A stretch of DNA of 64,000 nt from Rhizobium rhizogenes (GTDB lineage: Bacteria > Pseudomonadota > Alphaproteobacteria > Rhizobiales > Rhizobiaceae), in contig NZ_CP019701.2 of the NCBI RefSeq assembly GCF_002005205.3, positions 1,116,001 through 1,180,000 of the forward strand, written 5' to 3'. Both the position numbers and the translations under genes were made by a program. The notes under the pieces are model-generated. The model saw nothing but the letters and a program-made list of their open reading frames with translations. It searched no databases and had not been told where the DNA came from. Shown piece by piece: positions 15,232 to 51,879 of this stretch. Every line of letters begins with the position of its first letter. The first letter of the stretch is position 1.

Positions 15232-16005
15232 TCAAGGGCGCTGGCATGTCAGAATGAAGCGCCTGTAGACAAAGGTACGCAGCCTGTTGCGCAGGTTGGC
15301 ATTTTTCCGCTGTGCTTTCGCTATCGGGGCATGGGAATGGAGTTCTATCTTCACGAAGCCTGCAGCGGTCAGCAGCGGCGTCAGCATCTGAGGTCGCAGC
15401 CCCTGGCCGAATGGAAGCGCCTTCATGATGGCCGCATGGCGGTTGCCCAGGGCGCCGTCATAATTCCTGTCTTCACCCACCACATGATCGATGAGCGAAA
15501 TAAGCAGGCCCGCAAGACGTCCGGCCGGTTTCGGCGTCGCCCAGTCGCCATCGAAAAACAGAAGCCGACCGCCGGGACGGAGAAGCCTGAACCATTCGCG
15601 GAACGTCTGTTCGGGCTGCGTCAAAGTCCAGACCAGATGCCGGCAGATGATCGCGTCATAGGATGCTTCGGGTTCCATGGTGTTTTCGGCATCCGCCATG
15701 ATGAAGCGCAGCCGCGGTTTGCCGGCGTGTTTGGCGCGCGCCACAGCCAGCATCGCCTCTGAAAAGTCGAGTGCCGTAACATCGTGGCCGAGATCGTGGA
15801 TCAGGCGCGTCACCTCGCCGGTGCCGCAGGCCAGTTCGAGAACACGTTTCGGCTCCGGGCCGATCAGCTGCCGGATCGGTTTCTGCCACGCATCAGCCTC
15901 CGGACCGGCGGCGATCCTGTGTCCGAAGGCGAGATCGAAGGTCTCCGATCTTTTCGACCAGTAGTCGCGGATTTCTTCCTTGAGATCGAAATTACCGCCA
16001 TCCAT
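15232..16005 (-). CDS. Class I SAM-dependent methyltransferase
   Basis: A methyltransferase of about 257 residues. Motif I reads VLELACGTGEVT, followed by the acidic residue of TALDFSEAML and the motif around FIMADAEN; a later LLRPGGRLLFFDGD is the post-motif. The start at 16005 has an AAGGA site; ATG at 16029 is the alternative. It is the last gene of the operon behind the cobalamin riboswitch, 44 bases after the second permease. Its place suggests it modifies a compound handled by that transporter, such as a metal chelator or corrinoid precursor, but the substrate is not known. Confidence 0.85.
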   Translation of the reverse strand: MDGGNFDLKEEIRDYWSKRSETFDLAFGHRIAAGPEADAWQKPIRQLIGPEPKRVLELACGTGEVTRLIHDLGHDVTALDFSEAMLAVARAKHAGKPRLRFIMADAENTMEPEASYDAIICRHLVWTLTQPEQTFREWFRLLRPGGRLLFFDGDWATPKPAGRLAGLLISLIDHVVGEDRNYDGALGNRHAAIMKALPFGQGLRPQMLTPLLTAAGFVKIELHSHAPIAKAQRKNANLRNRLRTFVYRRFILTCQRP

Positions 16006-16049
16006 CGTGTCGTTCCTTGTGTGTTCCATGTTCAAGCTCAGCGAAATGA

Positions 16050-16811
16050 TCAGTCGGAAGCGTCGAATACGGTGTTGAGCGTCGCAACCGTGATGGCGAT
16101 TGCGATGCCGGGCCAGATCATCAGGCTTGGATGATCGAAGATGAAAACGCGATATTCAAACAACATCGAGCCCCAGTCCGGTTTGGAAGGGTCCGCGCCA
16201 AGCCCGATAAAGGCCAGCGAGGCATAGGCGGTGACGGCAAACCCCGCCTGATTTCCGGTATGAGTCACCATCAGCGGCAGGATATTCGGCAGAAGATGGC
16301 GCAGGACCATCCGCAAGGGCGGAACGCCCAGCGCCTGTGCGGCATGGACAAAGGGTTGCCCAAGCACACGCCGGCTGAGGGAATGGGCAAGCAGAGCCGT
16401 CGGGCCAATGCCGGCAAGACCAAGCGCCAGCCCGGCCGTTATCGGCGTCAGGCCAAAAATAGCCGCCGCCGTCAGCGCGATGATGAGCGTCGGAACGGTG
16501 ATGAAGAATTCGCAACAGCGCAACACCACCCTCTCCTGCCAGCCACCCAGCACCGCGGCGCCGGCGCCGAGCAAGGTGCCACCGGTAAAGGCGATGGTGC
16601 CGACCGACAGAACCACAAGCGCGGTGCGCCATCCGCCCGCCATGAGGCGCGCAAGAAGATCGCGGCCGAGATGATCGGTTCCCAGCAGATGCTGCGCCGT
16701 CACACCGGAATGGCGGGCCAGGATATCCACGGCATCAGGATCATAGGGCTGCCAAAGGGCGCTGAGGAGCAGGAAGAGGGCCAGGATGGCGAGCGCGAAA
16801 TACCGGAGCAT
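16050..16811 (-). CDS. ABC permease, DppC/NikC type
   Basis: A 253-residue inner-membrane permease of the peptide/nickel family. The LGTDHLGRDLLARLMAGG segment after the first helix is diagnostic of DppC/NikC-like subunits. The EAA loop lies in the region around VHAAQALGVPPLRMVLRH. Five to six hydrophobic segments are visible. The ATG overlaps the stop of the preceding permease by one base, so the two are translationally coupled. It would pair with that permease and the binding protein, in a cobalt- or corrinoid-related importer controlled by the riboswitch. Confidence 0.88.
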   Translation of the reverse strand: MLRYFALAILALFLLLSALWQPYDPDAVDILARHSGVTAQHLLGTDHLGRDLLARLMAGGWRTALVVLSVGTIAFTGGTLLGAGAAVLGGWQERVVLRCCEFFITVPTLIIALTAAAIFGLTPITAGLALGLAGIGPTALLAHSLSRRVLGQPFVHAAQALGVPPLRMVLRHLLPNILPLMVTHTGNQAGFAVTAYASLAFIGLGADPSKPDWGSMLFEYRVFIFDHPSLMIWPGIAIAITVATLNTVFDASD

Positions 16812-17725
16812 CAGACGAGCCGTGGATCCAGAAGGCGCTGAAACAGCTGCACGATCAGGTTCATGAAGAGCAGCCACAGCGCGATGACCATCACATAGGC
16901 CTGCAGCACCATCTGGTCTCGTACCGCGATGCTTTGCACAAGGAACTGGCTGATGCCGGGAAGATTGAAGAGGATTTCCATGGTGGCCGTTGAGCCGATC
17001 ACCCACCCCGCCTCCGAGCGCACCGCCGAAAGCAGGGCATAAAACGCACCGCGATGCGCGTGGCGCCAGAGCGCCTGCCGATGCGAAAGTCCCTTGGCGA
17101 GAGCGGTGCGAAAATACGGCTGTCGCGTGGTTTCGATCATGTCACGGCGGTAGATACGTGCAAAGACGGCAGCCGAATGGGAGGCGATGAGAAGGACGGG
17201 CAATATGATTGCTGTGATGTCGGTTCCGAAGGGTCGAATCCAGCGTAGCTGGACGCCGAGAACCCAGAGCAGGACAAGCCCCAGCCAGAAACCGGGAACA
17301 GCCTGCACGAAGACCGAAAATGCCCGGCTGGCACGATCGGCAATGCCACTCGGCCGCGCCGCAGCGCTGAAACCGAGCGGTACGGCGACGGCAATGGCGA
17401 GGAGAAGGCCGGAAATACCGAGCATGAGCGAGAGAGGCAGACGGTCGATAAACTCCGCAAAGACGGATTCGCCGGTGCGGAAAGATCGTCCCCAGTCACC
17501 GGCAACGAAATCCGAAAGCCAGTGCAGATAGCGCAGGATGAGCGGGCGATCGAGGCCCCACCCTTCCCGCAGCGCCGCAGCGGTTTCGCTCGTGGCCGTC
17601 AGGTTCCACACCCGAATGGCAATCTGCACCGGATCGGTGGGCATCCATGCGATGAGCGTGAAGGATGCGAATGAAAGCGCAACCATTCCCAACATGGAAT
17701 ATATGCCGAACCGGAGCAATTGCAT
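16811..17725 (-). CDS. ABC permease, DppB/NikB type
   Basis: A 304-residue permease of the binding-protein-dependent peptide/nickel class, with an N-terminal helix, a periplasmic loop and five further helices. The WGRSFRTGESV segment and the EAA-loop region RTALAKGLSHRQALWRHA are typical of DppB/NikB proteins. It starts six bases after the binding-protein stop and overlaps the next permease by one base. No ATPase gene accompanies the two permeases in this operon. Confidence 0.88.
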   Translation of the reverse strand: MQLLRFGIYSMLGMVALSFASFTLIAWMPTDPVQIAIRVWNLTATSETAAALREGWGLDRPLILRYLHWLSDFVAGDWGRSFRTGESVFAEFIDRLPLSLMLGISGLLLAIAVAVPLGFSAAARPSGIADRASRAFSVFVQAVPGFWLGLVLLWVLGVQLRWIRPFGTDITAIILPVLLIASHSAAVFARIYRRDMIETTRQPYFRTALAKGLSHRQALWRHAHRGAFYALLSAVRSEAGWVIGSTATMEILFNLPGISQFLVQSIAVRDQMVLQAYVMVIALWLLFMNLIVQLFQRLLDPRLV

Positions 17726-17731
17726 CTGACC

Positions 17732-19228
17732 TTACCGCGCTTCGCCTATGTCGCCGCGCAGGACATAATAGTCGGAACCCCACGGCTCGTAGTTCTGCAG
17801 CCGCTTCGAAAGGCCGACATACCAGACCGGCGAAACCAGGAAGGATGCGGGAACGTCGGCAAACAGCTTTGCCTGCGCATCAAGCGCGATCGTGGCCCGT
17901 TCGCCGGCATCGCCCGCCGTCGCGAAACGATCGAGAATGGCATCGAATTCAGGCGAGGCGTATTTCGCATAATTGAGCGAGGCGCCGCTGCGCAGCATCG
18001 AATTGAGGAAAAAGGCCGGATCTCCGTTCGGTGCGGTATGCTGCGCCCAGAGGGCGATGTCGAATTCACCGGCGGCAGCCACGTCCTGAATATTTTCAAC
18101 GACCTTCGTGTCGAGTTCGATGCCTATTCTGGCAAGCTGCGCCTTGACCACCGGCAGCACGGTGACGAGGTCCGGGCGCTGCGGATAGGTAATGGCGAGA
18201 AGGCGAAGCGGCGTGCCGTCCTTCTCCCGCTTCCCTGCCCCGTTTTTCGTCCAGCCGGCTTCGTCGAGAAGCGCTTCGGCCTTTACAAGATCGGTCTGTC
18301 GCTGCTCTTTCCCGGCAAAGGGGAAATAGGCGGCATAGGCGCCGGTCGCGGGTTCACCGCCATTGATCGCAGCGGCGAGTTCCCTGCGATCGAAGCCGAG
18401 ATCGAGCGCCTGGCGCACCTTGATATCGGCGGTAATCGGCCTCGTTGTGTTCAGGAAAGCGAGATATTGATAACCGACAGGGAAAGACTTGATCGTCAGA
18501 TCCGGATTGGTTTTCAGACGGCTTACGACTTCTGACGGCAGACCGAAAGCAAGATCCAGCTCGCCGGCTTCCAGCGCCAGCGTCATGCTCTGCGCATCGC
18601 CGAACCTGCGGAAATCAACCGGAGAACGGGCATCAGCATCGGCAAAATGGGTGTTCGGCGAGAGCGTCAGTGATGTATCCGCCTTGAAATCTGCAATCTG
18701 ATACGGCCCGGTGAACAGCGCCTTCCCGTCGGTTGCAGGCTTGTAGGCGATCAGCGGCCATTCCGCGAAAAGCGCCTGAAGAAAAGCCACCGGCTTTTCC
18801 GTGGTAATCATCAGTGTCAGGTCGTCGGCCGCCTTGAAATCCAGCTTTCCACCCGTTGCCAGCGCCGCCTTGTTGGTTGCAAACGTATGGTCGAAACCGG
18901 CGGCAAGTGCAGCCGCCGTTACAGGCGAACCATCGGAAAAGGCGTGGCCCGGTTTCAGCGTCACTTTCCAGCTGAGATCGCCGGTGCGTTCCGCTTTTTC
19001 GGCAAGACCGGGCACTAGCCGCCCTTCCCGGTCGACGGTGAAGAGGTTTTCACCCACGCCATGGCTGACGAGCGCCCAGCCGTTCGATCCCTTTGCCGGG
19101 TCGAGACCGCTCGTGATGTAGGTGGCGCCGACACGCAATGGCTCGGTGGCGAGAGCGCTGGCGCCCACACCCGTGATCAGGGCCGCAAGCCCGGCCACGG
19201 CCAGACGTGAAAAGCTCTTTGCCGACAT
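17732..19228 (-). CDS. Family-5 ABC solute-binding protein
   Basis: A 498-residue periplasmic binding protein of the peptide/nickel family (SBP_bac_5). A signal peptide ends near residue 28 at SALATEP. The body shows the family pattern: an N-terminal GLDPAKGSNGW region, a LKPGHAFSDGSPVTA motif, and a later LALGFDRRELAAAING-like motif. The ATG at 19228 gives a proper signal peptide; the longer open frame does not. It lies 16 bases after the CbiX-like fusion gene, behind a cobalamin riboswitch. Cobalt chelates or corrinoid precursors are the likely ligands. Layout resembles, from memory, the CbtJKL cobalt system of Sinorhizobium meliloti. Confidence 0.88.
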   Translation of the reverse strand: MSAKSFSRLAVAGLAALITGVGASALATEPLRVGATYITSGLDPAKGSNGWALVSHGVGENLFTVDREGRLVPGLAEKAERTGDLSWKVTLKPGHAFSDGSPVTAAALAAGFDHTFATNKAALATGGKLDFKAADDLTLMITTEKPVAFLQALFAEWPLIAYKPATDGKALFTGPYQIADFKADTSLTLSPNTHFADADARSPVDFRRFGDAQSMTLALEAGELDLAFGLPSEVVSRLKTNPDLTIKSFPVGYQYLAFLNTTRPITADIKVRQALDLGFDRRELAAAINGGEPATGAYAAYFPFAGKEQRQTDLVKAEALLDEAGWTKNGAGKREKDGTPLRLLAITYPQRPDLVTVLPVVKAQLARIGIELDTKVVENIQDVAAAGEFDIALWAQHTAPNGDPAFFLNSMLRSGASLNYAKYASPEFDAILDRFATAGDAGERATIALDAQAKLFADVPASFLVSPVWYVGLSKRLQNYEPWGSDYYVLRGDIGEAR

Positions 19229-19244
19229 TCTATTTCCTCTCATG

Positions 19245-20036
19245 CTATTCGGACAGATTACGAAGCCGCTGTTTGCGGCCGGTCGGGTGGTAGGCGAAAT
19301 CGTCAACGACGCGGCCGCCCAGCAGATGTTCGGCAACGATACGGTCGACTGCCTCTTCCGTGACGCCGCCATAATAGGTGCCCTCGGGAAAGACCTGCAG
19401 GACGGGCGCAAGGTTGCAGGGGCCAAGACAGGTGGACTTGGCGGTCATGGTGCCCTCACCCGTAATCCGAAGCTTCTGTCGCTCCTGCTGGTTGCGCAGA
19501 TGGCCCCAGATCGCATCCGCACCCGCCGAATTGCATGGACCACCCTGGCAGACGAGCACGCGGCGCTTCTGTGCCGGGACCAGCGATCCCTCGCCAGCCG
19601 GGCGAACAGGCCCAGAGAGGTCAAGCGCCTGCGCCGTTTCGGCAAGATCTTCAAGCAGACGCGCCATCAGGCCGCTCGCTGTGGGGCTTGCTGTTATGGA
19701 AAGGGACGGCCACGGCCTGACGTCGCCTGCCCGCCATCGTTTCAATGTCTTGGTCATCCAGTTGTGAAAACTGGGCTCCAGTGGCAGCATCAGTGGAATG
19801 ATCAGGATATGGCTGACATCCTCATCGATCAGATTAAGCAGCTCTTCGCGGAGTGACGGTGTTCCCTGTTCCGTGAAGGCGATGCGAACGGTCCTTGCGC
19901 CGCAAAGCCCTTCAGCCTGCATTGCCAGACGCTGCATGTCCTGATGAGGCGCGGCGGCAAAGGCCGACTTCGCGACCAGCAGCACGGCGTCGGGCGCAGA
20001 CGGCTCGTATTGGGTTGGTTGGATACTGTCTGTCAC
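19245..20036 (-). CDS. CbiX-like domain fused to a thioredoxin-like [2Fe-2S] ferredoxin
   Basis: A 263-residue two-domain protein. Residues 15-135 resemble CbiX, the small cobaltochelatase of cobalamin synthesis. The catalytic GHGSR motif of true chelatases is replaced by AKSAF at 22-26, while a His remains in EPSFHNW at about 91. Residues 158-245 form a thioredoxin-like ferredoxin with C163-x4-C168 and C203-x3-C207 as cluster ligands. The start is a GTG, since the overlapping ATG is followed at once by a stop. It is the first gene behind the cobalamin riboswitch, so it is expected to act when B12 is low. Chelatase activity is doubtful; a metal-binding or redox role is an alternative. Confidence 0.8.
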   Translation of the reverse strand: MTDSIQPTQYEPSAPDAVLLVAKSAFAAAPHQDMQRLAMQAEGLCGARTVRIAFTEQGTPSLREELLNLIDEDVSHILIIPLMLPLEPSFHNWMTKTLKRWRAGDVRPWPSLSITASPTASGLMARLLEDLAETAQALDLSGPVRPAGEGSLVPAQKRRVLVCQGGPCNSAGADAIWGHLRNQQERQKLRITGEGTMTAKSTCLGPCNLAPVLQVFPEGTYYGGVTEEAVDRIVAEHLLGGRVVDDFAYHPTGRKQRLRNLSE

Positions 20037-20139
20037 ATTGCCTCATTCACGAGGCGGTGTCGAAAATGACAGGGTCTCCGGCTAAAGACCGGAAACAGCC
20101 ATCATTCCCATGGCACCCCCCGACCACGGAATTACATGA

Positions 20140-20330
20140 TGTCAGGCAGGTCTCCTGGCTTGCGGGTCGAGGCCGTCTCACCTGTCTTCCCGGCATCGCT
20201 GCCAGTGACATCGTGGGCGATAGGCTCACCGCTTACAGTTGCGGGACAGCTCCGGAATTTAACCGGATTCCCTCTTAGCTTCCGCCGGGCGGCGGAAGAA
20301 CCATGACGGAGCGACCCTACACTGCCGCCG
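20140..20330 (-). promoter_or_regulatory. Cobalamin (B12) riboswitch
   Basis: Reading the reverse strand, the conserved elements occur in order: a 5' GTCATGGTTCTT segment, AGAGGGAATCCGGT, the core AGCTGTCCCGCAACTGTAAG, CACTGGC, GGGAAG and the 3' GCCAGGAGACCTGCCTGACA. These are the adenosylcobalamin aptamer hallmarks. The 3' end is 104 bases before the CbiX-like gene. Adenosylcobalamin binding is expected to switch off the downstream transporter operon. Boundaries are approximate. Confidence 0.95.
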
Positions 20331-20493: not shown

Positions 20494-21387
20494 TCAGCCC
20501 TGACCTTTCGCCATCGTCAGATAATCCACAACTGCGCGAGCATGCACGGGAAGCCCGGCGAAACTTCGCGCGCAGATAAGAAGATGACGGCGTGCCCAAA
20601 CGTCGGAGATCGCGACGGTCTTGAAGGACAAATCGGCCTGATATCGGCGGGCATAAACCTCCGGCACGATGGCAAGCCCGACGCCGCTGCTGACCATGGC
20701 GCAGATATCCTCGAAACTATCCAGACGGATACGCAGTTTGAACGGCCGGCCTTCACGCGCCGCATGGATTGCCAGATGCCCCTGAAGCGCGCTTTCCGCA
20801 GGCAGACCGACAAAAGGTTCGTCGAGAAGCTCCGCGAAAGTCACCATCTTCCGGGCCGCGAGTGCATGGCTGGCAGGTGTGATCACAACCAGCCTGTCGA
20901 TCTCGAAAGGCCGTGTTTCCAGCGTTCCCGTGTCGGTCGTGTCTGCCGCAATGCCGATATCCGCTTGCCCGGCGGCGACGGCCGCAACCACATCGGGGCT
21001 CTGGCGCTCCTCGAGGTCTATGTCGATTGTCGGGTGATCCACGAGATATTGCCGAAGGGCGCCGGGAAGATGCGCCATTGCCGCCCGCCCCGAGAATATC
21101 CGGACCTGTCCCCGCAGGCCCCGCGCATAAAGCTGGAGATCGCCCCTCATCTGTTCCATCTGCCCGAGAACGATACGGGCATGGTGGGCCAGGGCCTCCC
21201 CCGCCGGCGTCACCCTGACGCCACGGGCACCCCGGTCGAGAAGCGATACGCCGCTCATCTCCTCCATGCCGCGGATACGCGCGCTGGCGGAGGGCAAGGC
21301 CATCCCCGCGCGGTCTGCTCCCTGCGTAATACTTTCCGCCTCGACCACGTGAAGGAACAGACGGAGATCGGTCAAGTCGAAGCGCAT
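20494..21387 (-). CDS. LysR-type transcriptional regulator
   Basis: A 297-residue LysR regulator. The N-terminal winged helix-turn-helix spans about residues 1-60, with the recognition region around ALPSASARIRGME. The remainder is the periplasmic-binding-like effector domain. The start ATG at 21387 begins MRFDLTDLRLFL. It precedes the riboswitch operon on the same strand but is separated by more than 160 bases. Divergent to it lies a small open frame. Its target is not evident. Confidence 0.88.
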   Translation of the reverse strand: MRFDLTDLRLFLHVVEAESITQGADRAGMALPSASARIRGMEEMSGVSLLDRGARGVRVTPAGEALAHHARIVLGQMEQMRGDLQLYARGLRGQVRIFSGRAAMAHLPGALRQYLVDHPTIDIDLEERQSPDVVAAVAAGQADIGIAADTTDTGTLETRPFEIDRLVVITPASHALAARKMVTFAELLDEPFVGLPAESALQGHLAIHAAREGRPFKLRIRLDSFEDICAMVSSGVGLAIVPEVYARRYQADLSFKTVAISDVWARRHLLICARSFAGLPVHARAVVDYLTMAKGQG

Positions 21388-50154: not shown

Positions 50155-50969
50155 GATCTGCCTCCTTCATCCGCGGAGCGGGAGAAACCCGGCGCCGGCA
50201 ACAGGCTTATAACGAACAGGATCACCGCGGCAACCACGATGGAGGGGCCGGACGGCGTATCATAGGTCAGCGAGCCGAACAGGCCGCCGATAACGGCAAT
50301 GGCGCCAATCAGCGACGCGACCACCGCCATTACTTCCGGCGTGGCGGAAAAACGTCTGGCGGTGGCAGCCGGTATGATCAGCAGCGAGGTGATGAGCATG
50401 ATGCCGACCACCTTCATCGCAATGGCGATCACCAGCGCCATCAGCAGCGTGAAGATGAGCTTCGCCCGCTCCGGATTCAGCCCCTCGGCTTCAGCCAGTT
50501 CGGTGTTGACGGTGGAGGCGAGCAGCGACCGCCACAAGAAGACCATGGAGACGATGACCACCAGCCCGCCGCCCCAGATCAGCGCGATATCGCTGCGGGT
50601 GACGGCAAGAATATCGCCGAACAGGAACGAGACGAGGTCGATACGCACCCAGCTCATGAAAGCGACGATGACGAGGCCAATGGCGAGAGCCGAATGGGAC
50701 AGGATGCCAAGCAATGCGTCGGACGACAGTGCCTGTCGCCGCTGCAGAAAAATCAGCAGGATCGAAACGGCGGACGCCACCAGAAAGACGCTGATGATGA
50801 GGTTGAGCTGCAACAGCAGCGAGAGCGCGACACCAAGCAGCGCCGAATGGGCCATCGTATCCCCGAAATAGGCCATGCGCCGCCAGACCACGAAACAGCC
50901 GAGAGGCCCGGCGGTTAGAGCAACGCCGACGCCGGCGACCATGGCGCGAACGAAGAAATCGTCAAACAT
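50151..50969 (-). CDS. znuB: Zinc ABC permease ZnuB
   Basis: A 272-residue permease of the metal-type ABC-3 family with about eight hydrophobic segments. The start MFDDFFVRAMVAG and the GDTMAHSALLGVAL segment are typical. The ATG at 50969 overlaps the znuC end by eight bases, and the stop overlaps zur by four, so the three genes are translationally coupled. Confidence 0.94.
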   Translation of the reverse strand: MFDDFFVRAMVAGVGVALTAGPLGCFVVWRRMAYFGDTMAHSALLGVALSLLLQLNLIISVFLVASAVSILLIFLQRRQALSSDALLGILSHSALAIGLVIVAFMSWVRIDLVSFLFGDILAVTRSDIALIWGGGLVVIVSMVFLWRSLLASTVNTELAEAEGLNPERAKLIFTLLMALVIAIAMKVVGIMLITSLLIIPAATARRFSATPEVMAVVASLIGAIAVIGGLFGSLTYDTPSGPSIVVAAVILFVISLLPAPGFSRSADEGGRS

Positions 50970-51879
50970 GCCGTTCTCCCTGCGCGTGTTTCGAGGGCGC
51001 TTGCTCCCCATGTTCATGGCCGCAACCGCATTCGTCGCCATGGTCATCATGATGGTGGCCATGATCATGGGCATGGTGGTGGCCGTCTTCAGGATGGCAA
51101 TGATCCGTCACCGAACCATCCGCGTGCTGCACCCGGCCATCGGGCAGATGGGTGTGGTCGTGGTGGTGGCTGTAGACGGCAAGCGCCCTTGCGGCAGAAC
51201 CGCCGAACAGTCGCATATATTCCGGGCTCTGGCTGACCGCCTGCGGTGTTCCCCGGCAGCAGACATGGCCGTTCAGGCAGATCACGGTATCGGTTTCCGC
51301 CATCACCACATGCAGGTCATGCGAGATTAACAGAATCCCGCAATTACTTGAATTTCTGATGTTTTTTATCAGATCGTACAGCGCGATCTCGCCGGAGAAA
51401 TCCACACCCTGCACAGGCTCGTCAAGAACCAGCAGATCGGGCTTGCGGGCGATGGCGCGAGCCAGAAGCGCACGCTGGAACTCGCCGCCGGAAAGGTGTT
51501 GAACTTCGGCGTTCGCCAGATGTGCGATGCCAGTCGCATTCAACGCCGCATCGATCTCGCGGGCGGGCAGCGGCCCGGTCAGCGTCATCAGCCGGCGTAC
51601 CGAAAGCGGCATGGTCCAGTCCACCGAAAGCTTCTGCGGCACATAACCGACACGCAGGCCGGCAATGCGCGAGACTTCACCCTCGGTCGGTTTCATTACG
51701 CCGATCGCCATTTTCGCGCTTGTGGATTTGCCGGAACCGTTCGGGCCGATCAGCGTCACGATCTCGCCCTTGCTGACGGAAAACTCCACGCCGCGCACCA
51801 GCCAGCGGCCATTGCGCTGCACGCCGGCATTGGCAAGGGAAACCAGTATATCGTTACCCTGACGGGCAGAATGAAGCAT
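50962..51879 (-). CDS. znuC: Zinc ABC ATPase ZnuC with His-rich tail
   Basis: A 305-residue ATPase. The P-loop is GPNGSGKST at about 44-52, the signature LSGGEFQ near 130, and Walker B LLVLDEP near 152. The core ends near residue 235. The last 65 residues are dense in His and Asp (HHHDHTH, HHHAHDHGHHHDD), an extension that probably binds zinc. It faces znuA across a 104-base divergent gap with putative Zur sites. Confidence 0.95.
   Translation of the reverse strand: MLHSARQGNDILVSLANAGVQRNGRWLVRGVEFSVSKGEIVTLIGPNGSGKSTSAKMAIGVMKPTEGEVSRIAGLRVGYVPQKLSVDWTMPLSVRRLMTLTGPLPAREIDAALNATGIAHLANAEVQHLSGGEFQRALLARAIARKPDLLVLDEPVQGVDFSGEIALYDLIKNIRNSSNCGILLISHDLHVVMAETDTVICLNGHVCCRGTPQAVSQSPEYMRLFGGSAARALAVYSHHHDHTHLPDGRVQHADGSVTDHCHPEDGHHHAHDHGHHHDDHGDECGCGHEHGEQAPSKHAQGERHV

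Follow-up and report, generated by a model that had tools for sequence, protein, structure and literature searches.

The window analyzed here, a stretch of 64,000 nucleotides from Rhizobium rhizogenes (contig NZ_CP019701.2, positions 1,116,001 to 1,180,000), contains a reverse-strand operon that is preceded by a cobalamin riboswitch and probably encodes a B12-repressed importer of cobalt, most likely of a cobalt chelate, along with a redox or metal-handling protein in which a CbiX-like domain is fused to a predicted [2Fe-2S] ferredoxin. Cobalt is proposed because the solute-binding protein (SBP) of the importer is nearest to nickel-binding proteins; because a methyltransferase slot is common to this locus and to operons of the type of CbtJKL, an experimentally known cobalt importer; because CobW GTPases lie near such loci; and because importer relatives with another first gene, or none, keep a B12 box, likewise without an ATPase. 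An earlier note on this DNA had suggested a role in cobalt or corrinoid supply, and the genomic context makes such a role likely. The features of the locus, in window coordinates, are as follows.

20128..20321, reverse strand: cobalamin riboswitch aptamer, RF00174 (Rfam, full-length model match)
20040..20055, reverse strand: hairpin GCCUC-6 nt-GAGGC, putative translational expression platform (leader folding)
19245..20036, reverse strand: CbiX-like/thioredoxin-like [2Fe-2S] ferredoxin fusion, 263 amino acids, GTG start (Pfam, AlphaFold2, fold matches)
19632..19994, reverse strand: CbiX-like domain of the fusion, residues 15-135, chelatase histidines lost
19266..19577, reverse strand: predicted [2Fe-2S] ferredoxin domain of the fusion, residues 154-257, with C163, C168, C203, and C207
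17732..19228, reverse strand: family-5 SBP, NikA/Opp2 type, invariant His397 (Pfam, NCBIfam, solved-chain match)
16811..17725, reverse strand: family-5 permease B, EAA-type loop (Pfam, NCBIfam)
16050..16811, reverse strand: family-5 permease C, EAA-type loop (Pfam, NCBIfam)
15232..16005, reverse strand: class I S-adenosylmethionine methyltransferase, a neighbor, perhaps cotranscribed, that is not a conserved operon member

Riboswitch, fusion protein, and transporter genes

The riboswitch noticed earlier ahead of the reverse-strand genes was confirmed by a covariance-model search (126.3 bits; E = 2.4e-31; gathering cutoff, 31.5). Between the aptamer and the GTG of the first gene, the leader can form a GCCUC-N6-GAGGC hairpin that would mask the Shine-Dalgarno sequence. 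Among the six leaders folded, a masking hairpin was found in those of the window, L022, L025, and L031 and, with a longer loop, in that of L038; the L043 leader differs from the other five. Because the hairpin would cover the Shine-Dalgarno sequence and recurs in related leaders, the riboswitch of the window operon likely acts at translation. The L043 leader (L043:7850-7970) resembles an intrinsic terminator rather than a Shine-Dalgarno hairpin, so the mode of control may vary among lineages. Pattern scans for promoters and terminators gave no clear excess over shuffles (0 versus 1.7 and 7 versus 5.3, respectively).

In the product of the first gene, Pfam recognizes a CbiX domain (25.9 bits; cutoff, 22) and a 2Fe-2S_thioredx domain (44.9 bits), and an AlphaFold2 model (predicted local distance difference test score, 72) matches both the CbiX/CfbA and the ferredoxin folds. 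The fusion was correctly described in the earlier note: the chelatase motif GHGSR is replaced by AKSAF, and the ferredoxin half bears four cysteines (CX4C-X34-CX3C), which proved invariant in all 22 aligned fusions. Residues 15-135 have the fold of class II chelatases (CbiX/CfbA/SirB), and their profile matches the SirB C-terminal lobe and 3lyh; unlike those enzymes, the fusion lacks both catalytic histidines (His10 and His74 in A. fulgidus CbiXS; PMC7689651) and is joined to a ferredoxin. There is no invariant histidine in the CbiX-like domain of the aligned fusions. The C-terminal half shares its fold and four-cysteine pattern with thioredoxin-like [2Fe-2S] ferredoxins (A. aeolicus Fd, A. 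vinelandii FeSI, and NuoE), from which the window protein differs in carrying a chelatase-like domain and in lying in cobalt/B12 uptake loci. A literature search of titles and the beginnings of abstracts returned no description of a CbiX-like/[2Fe-2S] fusion. Its cysteines, its slot in the operon, and its neighbors suggest a redox or metal-handling protein; a redox role is proposed because of the four invariant cysteines and because, in a sister operon of Rhodococcus, a FhuF_C [2Fe-2S] protein is encoded at the corresponding position (see below).

The next three genes encode the transporter, in which permeases B and C overlap by 1 nt. Pfam assigns SBP_bac_5 to the SBP and BPD_transp_1 to both permeases, and the nearest NCBIfam models are Opp5A_nikA, Opp2B, and Opp2C, whose equivalog cutoffs are not reached (252.7 versus 600 bits for the SBP; 251.7 versus 350 and 166.9 versus 300 bits for the permeases). 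The closest solved chain to the SBP is that of a nickel-binding protein (3t66; E = 1.7e-45), and His397 is invariant in all 18 alphaproteobacterial and both other aligned homologs. Permease C, with 253 amino acids, is without the long C terminus found in many family-5 permeases, and a truncation was considered; it was ruled out by a Fusobacterium homolog of equal length that lies in an operon with two ATPase-like open reading frames (ORFs). The EAA-type loop is kept in both window permeases. In its SBP and paired permeases the locus resembles NikABCDE/Opp2 systems, and control of two NikABCDE systems by B12 riboswitches has been predicted before, in C. tetani and D. hafniense (PMC2667541). Unlike them, the window operon has no NikD/NikE ATPases, scores below the equivalog cutoffs, and has the fusion as its first gene, a place held in some relatives by DUF1636.

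Conservation of the four-gene operon

The operon was traced in two genome samples. In the first, which comprised 61 genomes (the source genome, 36 others of the genus, and 24 of the order), the full fusion was found in the source genome and in 7 of the 36 genus relatives, five more matches being to ferredoxins only. All seven relatives have the four genes in order with a riboswitch directly upstream. The second sample, a scan of a genome collection, yielded 21 fusion loci, of which L029, L030, and L040 belong to genomes already in the first sample and L044 lies very near one. The fusion, SBP, permease B, and permease C occur together in 18 of the 21 loci, at 59 to 97% identity per gene. In L041 and L045, the fusion accompanies a different family-5 system (about 29 to 32% identity) that has ATPase domains by Pfam, and in L048 it stands without SBP or permeases. 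A cobalamin riboswitch is present in every locus, immediately 5' in 20 and behind the fusion gene in L048. The gene order is therefore not peculiar to this strain. Behind B12 riboswitches, it is conserved for four genes and not for the five described in the earlier note, since 18 of the 21 loci lack the methyltransferase.

A riboswitch with the four-gene set was also found in four genomes of family f16 (L146 and L191 to L193; L191 is the same genome as L049). A survey of 397 genomes of the order (fusion, E ≤ 1e-20, at most six candidates scored per genome; SBP, E ≤ 1e-70, at most three) placed the fusion in 15 genomes and the SBP in 13. Both occur in eight: the source genome, the four of family f16, where the genes are adjacent, and three of family f44, where they lie apart. 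A phylum survey (matches in 158 of 398 genomes) was not used for prevalence, as many listed matches span only the ferredoxin half.

An importer without its own ATPase

No ATPase gene lies within the window operon; Pfam, NCBIfam, and a reading of the genes thus bear out the earlier description of a nickel-type permease and binding-protein set that lacks one. A motif scan for ATPase-like ORFs, defined by a Walker A motif plus signature, found none inside the 18 four-gene operons. L031, L034, and L037 have more distant ones on the opposite strand; in L033, L035, and L042, such ORFs share the strand of the operon but lie 4 to 6 kb upstream of its riboswitch. The closest nonalphaproteobacterial homologs found, in Fusobacterium and Aerococcus, comprise an SBP, two permeases, and two ATPases. 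Because 18 of 21 loci have the four-gene core behind a riboswitch, with no ATPase in the operon, the loss is, on this distribution, an old trait and not decay.

The source genome was searched for a candidate donor, with 150 of 258 ATPase candidates scored. It holds 26 permease-B loci (33 matches, seven split pairs having been merged). At 25 of these, a family-5-type ATPase lies no more than about 6 kb away; C2:513382, counted among the 25, qualifies only through an adjacent complete family-5 system. At that place, a second ATPase-less set of family-5 SBP and two permeases, followed by an amidase-like gene, adjoins the complete system (L089:12096-17132; C2:511.1-516.1 kb). Among the family-5-like ATPase matches listed, the one closest to the window operon is about 66 kb away. 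A ZnuC-type ATPase ORF at window positions 50962-51879, identified by reading, has its own permease and SBP genes. Two apparent orphans were dismissed, C1:2861035 as part of a complete Yej-like set and C1:2847427 as lying in a phn cluster.

The likeliest arrangement suggested by these neighborhoods is that another family-5 system lends its ATPase to the permeases. MsmX is a shared ATPase. The arrangement predicted here would be like that of MsmK and MsmX, unlike it in that those ATPases serve sugar importers. MsmK is described in PMC4519317 as a single ATPase serving several importers. It is quite improbable that a specific, dedicated ATPase is encoded elsewhere in the genome, since the listed PF08352 ATPases adjoin other family-5 permeases or sit in the phn cluster; the distant, co-occurring ATPase that the earlier note had envisaged did not emerge as a dedicated one among the candidates scored. 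On Paracoccus pAMI1, the riboswitch and four genes lie directly behind a complete same-strand family-5 system with two ATPases, and use of that neighbor's ATPase is possible there. That the importer is a relic, its ATPases lost and the rest inactive or merely a binding or sensing complex, would fit the absence of an ATPase from the operon of every four-gene locus examined, against two in the Fusobacterium and Aerococcus operons. Such a relic is highly improbable, however, given four intact genes in 18 loci at the identities stated above, the presence of EAA-type loops, and an ATPase loss that appears ancient and common to the lineage. A borrowed ATPase is hence the arrangement adopted below.

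The fusion and the importer apart from each other

The fusion recurs beside three kinds of importer controlled by B12 riboswitches, namely, family 5 without an ATPase, family 5 with an ATPase, and the BtuFCD/FecBCD type. In all six loci fetched from family f44 (L139 to L141, L189, L190, and L194), the genes behind the riboswitch are, in order, those for the SBP, FecCD permease, ATPase, and fusion (Pfam for L189). The order in L183 is riboswitch, TonB receptor, SBP, FecCD permease, ATPase, and fusion, and in L144, a TonB receptor, an ATPase-like ORF, and an SBP precede the fusion. By annotation, BtuFCD/FecBCD-type riboswitch operons of Azospirillum (L150, with a TonB receptor) and Rhodococcus (L152) contain it as well, the two Rhodococcus riboswitches being weak (39.3 and 41.7 bits; cutoff, 31.5). 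Fusion relatives are thus found in operons like those of BtuBFCD corrinoid uptake (L183), from which the window transporter differs in being of family 5. The Rhodococcus plasmid carries a second riboswitch operon (L152:8263-12170) of SBP, permease, and ATPase, in which the last gene, in the slot of the fusion, encodes the FhuF_C [2Fe-2S] protein. CobW-family GTPases lie beside the fusion in L048, beside the riboswitch in L193, and near the SBP loci L201, L204, and L208. In L186, CobK (PF02571) is followed by a related protein of the ferredoxin type, and L187 and L188 repeat this ORF order; the proteins of L184 to L188 count only as ferredoxin-type relatives because the N-terminal 82 residues did not align with them in the profile comparison. 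In L142, the fusion homolog (L142:8033-8806) lies beside a gene for an iron-containing alcohol dehydrogenase and beside genes resembling those of FolE and Zur.

Conversely, the importer occurs without the fusion at its side. Eight SBP places were fetched, from five SBP-only genomes and three f44 genomes, and scanned with a B12-box pattern that, over 399 kb, picked up all 24 Rfam riboswitches and nothing else. The box was found at seven; the eighth, L207, is an uninformative 3.7-kb contig with no box and a cut permease. The box is followed by DUF1636 (Pfam), SBP, and permeases B and C in three f22 genomes, by SBP, B, C, and CobW in L201, and by SBP, B, and C in the three f44 genomes. A motif scan found no ATPase in the operon of these seven loci, two of which (L203 and L208) are on short contigs, and the sole ATPase ORF nearby lies 2.7 kb downstream of the operon in L204. 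The DUF1636 proteins that hold the first place have CX2C/CX3C cysteines (L202:9010-9471, L203:6824-7267, and L208:6627-7073).

The adjoining methyltransferase

The methyltransferase (Methyltransf_11 by Pfam) starts 44 bp after permease C, with an alternative TTG start possible at 16035. Its reading as the closing member of the operon, made in the earlier note, was abandoned: 3 of the 21 loci and 5 of the 7 genus loci have it beside the operon, and in the sister genomes L135 and L136 it occupies the same chromosomal place without operon or B12 box. A chance neighborhood was set aside as well, since orthologs (64 to 83% identity) follow an SBP, iron-type permease, and ATPase, as judged from annotation or from the ORFs, in eight places: S. 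meliloti pSymB, another S. meliloti plasmid, three Shinella plasmids, an Ensifer plasmid, G014, and G029. One extra small gene intervenes in Ensifer and G029. A B12 box lies upstream in seven of the eight operons, all except Ensifer L199. The pSymB operon, BtuF-like, located on pSymB, and headed by an adenosylcobalamin riboswitch, is presumably CbtJKL, matched to published descriptions (PMC7689651 and PMC12239276). Because its orthologs close CbtJKL-type operons, the methyltransferase is, by genomic association, a member of a cobalt-supply regulon and not of the conserved four-gene operon.

The likeness to CbtJKL drawn in the earlier note stands as an analogy: both loci have an adenosylcobalamin riboswitch, a methyltransferase ortholog directly downstream, and, for the window by prediction, a role in cobalt supply. 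It does not extend to homology of the SBPs, as CbtJKL has a BtuF-like SBP, an iron-type permease, and its own ATPase, whereas the window SBP is SBP_bac_5 and not Peripla_BP_2; neither it nor the fusion had a match in the 30 kb of pSymB examined, and the source genome has a CbtJKL-like operon of its own elsewhere. A paralog of the methyltransferase, about 41% identical, lies on the reverse strand at L055:7140-7964 (C2, about 1845.1-1846.0 kb), flanked by a CbtJKL-like system with a B12 riboswitch and by a second system, of FecBCD type, that has two SBPs in tandem. In Shinella, an unrelated methyltransferase (L151:14078-14776) comes after the four-gene operon, facing a FecBCD-type system.

Other cobalamin riboswitches of the genome

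The source genome has seven RF00174 riboswitches. Besides that of the window, they precede metE (Pfam), ribonucleotide reductase (Pfam), a nitroreductase-family gene resembling bluB, cbtA (Pfam CbtA) behind a small cbtB-like gene without a Pfam match, a DUF1636-CobW-CobN operon (Pfam), and the CbtJKL-like ABC system. The organism therefore possesses CobW, CobN, and at least two further candidate routes for cobalt.

Predicted function

At low adenosylcobalamin, the riboswitch would open, probably by freeing the Shine-Dalgarno sequence. The SBP, of the NikA family, would hand its presumed cobalt substrate to the two permeases, powered by the ATPase of another family-5 transporter, and the cytoplasmic fusion may take the imported cobalt species and reduce or release it upstream of CobW/CobNST.

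Several observations weigh against this proposal. The CbiX-like domain of the aligned fusions is without a conserved metal ligand; L142 and L145 are fusion loci with no riboswitch in the examined stretch; in L140, a separate family-5 system accompanied by ATPase-like ORFs lies close by; and the source genome already holds CbtA-like and CbtJKL-like systems. Among the candidates scored, no donor ATPase was singled out, the family-5 ATPases matching an Opp2-type ATPase about equally, with the best E value at 36% identity. Seven genomes of the order survey have only the fusion and five only the SBP, so the pairing is not obligate. Finally, the fusion accompanies a TonB receptor and BtuFCD-type genes (L183, L144, and L150), which might just as well carry corrinoids. 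The operon might accordingly import B12, cobinamide, or ring precursors, with the fusion binding corrinoids and acting as a reductase, either to ready Co(III) corrinoids for adenosylation or to strip an upper ligand. The ferredoxin-type relatives behind CobK, the binding of tetrapyrroles by CbiX folds, and the inclusion of heme binders among family-5 SBPs (heme-binding protein A is among the solved-structure matches of the window SBP) all agree with corrinoids. We nevertheless regard corrinoid import as rather unlikely, since the window SBP is nearest to NikA, since CobW and DUF1636 neighbors and the common methyltransferase point to cobalt, and since a BtuF-like annotation cannot separate B12 from cobalt: CbtJ of the experimentally supported cobalt importer CbtJKL was itself first read as BtuF-like (PMC7689651).

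With cobalt import retained as the probable function, a broader proposal can be made tentatively, as a possibility that we would not yet favor: the fusion may be an unrecognized cytosolic cobalt-release or -reduction factor that serves unrelated B12-riboswitch importers in Proteobacteria and Actinobacteria, a cobalt counterpart of FhuF for iron-siderophores, paired in alphaproteobacteria with a NikABC-type lineage that has dispensed with an ATPase of its own in favor of a shared one. To our knowledge, the release of cobalt from its carrier and its passage to CobW/CobNST are poorly known steps. The fusion family, whose place is taken in other operons by DUF1636 or a FhuF-type protein, would be a direct, testable candidate for this hand-over, and the NikABC lineage without ATPases would represent metal import that depends on a shared ATPase. 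An unexplained methyltransferase is also linked here to a class of cobalt-uptake operons known from experiment.

Genomic setting

A LysR-type regulator gene (20494-21387) upstream of the riboswitch accompanies the operon in its closest relatives only (L021 and L044); a protein search did not find it in L022 to L027, which carry the operon, and it was dropped as variable. The window lies on a 3.0-Mb replicon of a genome that consists of this replicon, one of 2.28 Mb, and a small contig. The genome stands close to Agrobacterium: comparison of the fusion protein gives, as nearest named relatives, R. rhizogenes GBBC3284 (93%), A. arsenijevicii (86%), and Agrobacterium genomosp. 13 (84%).

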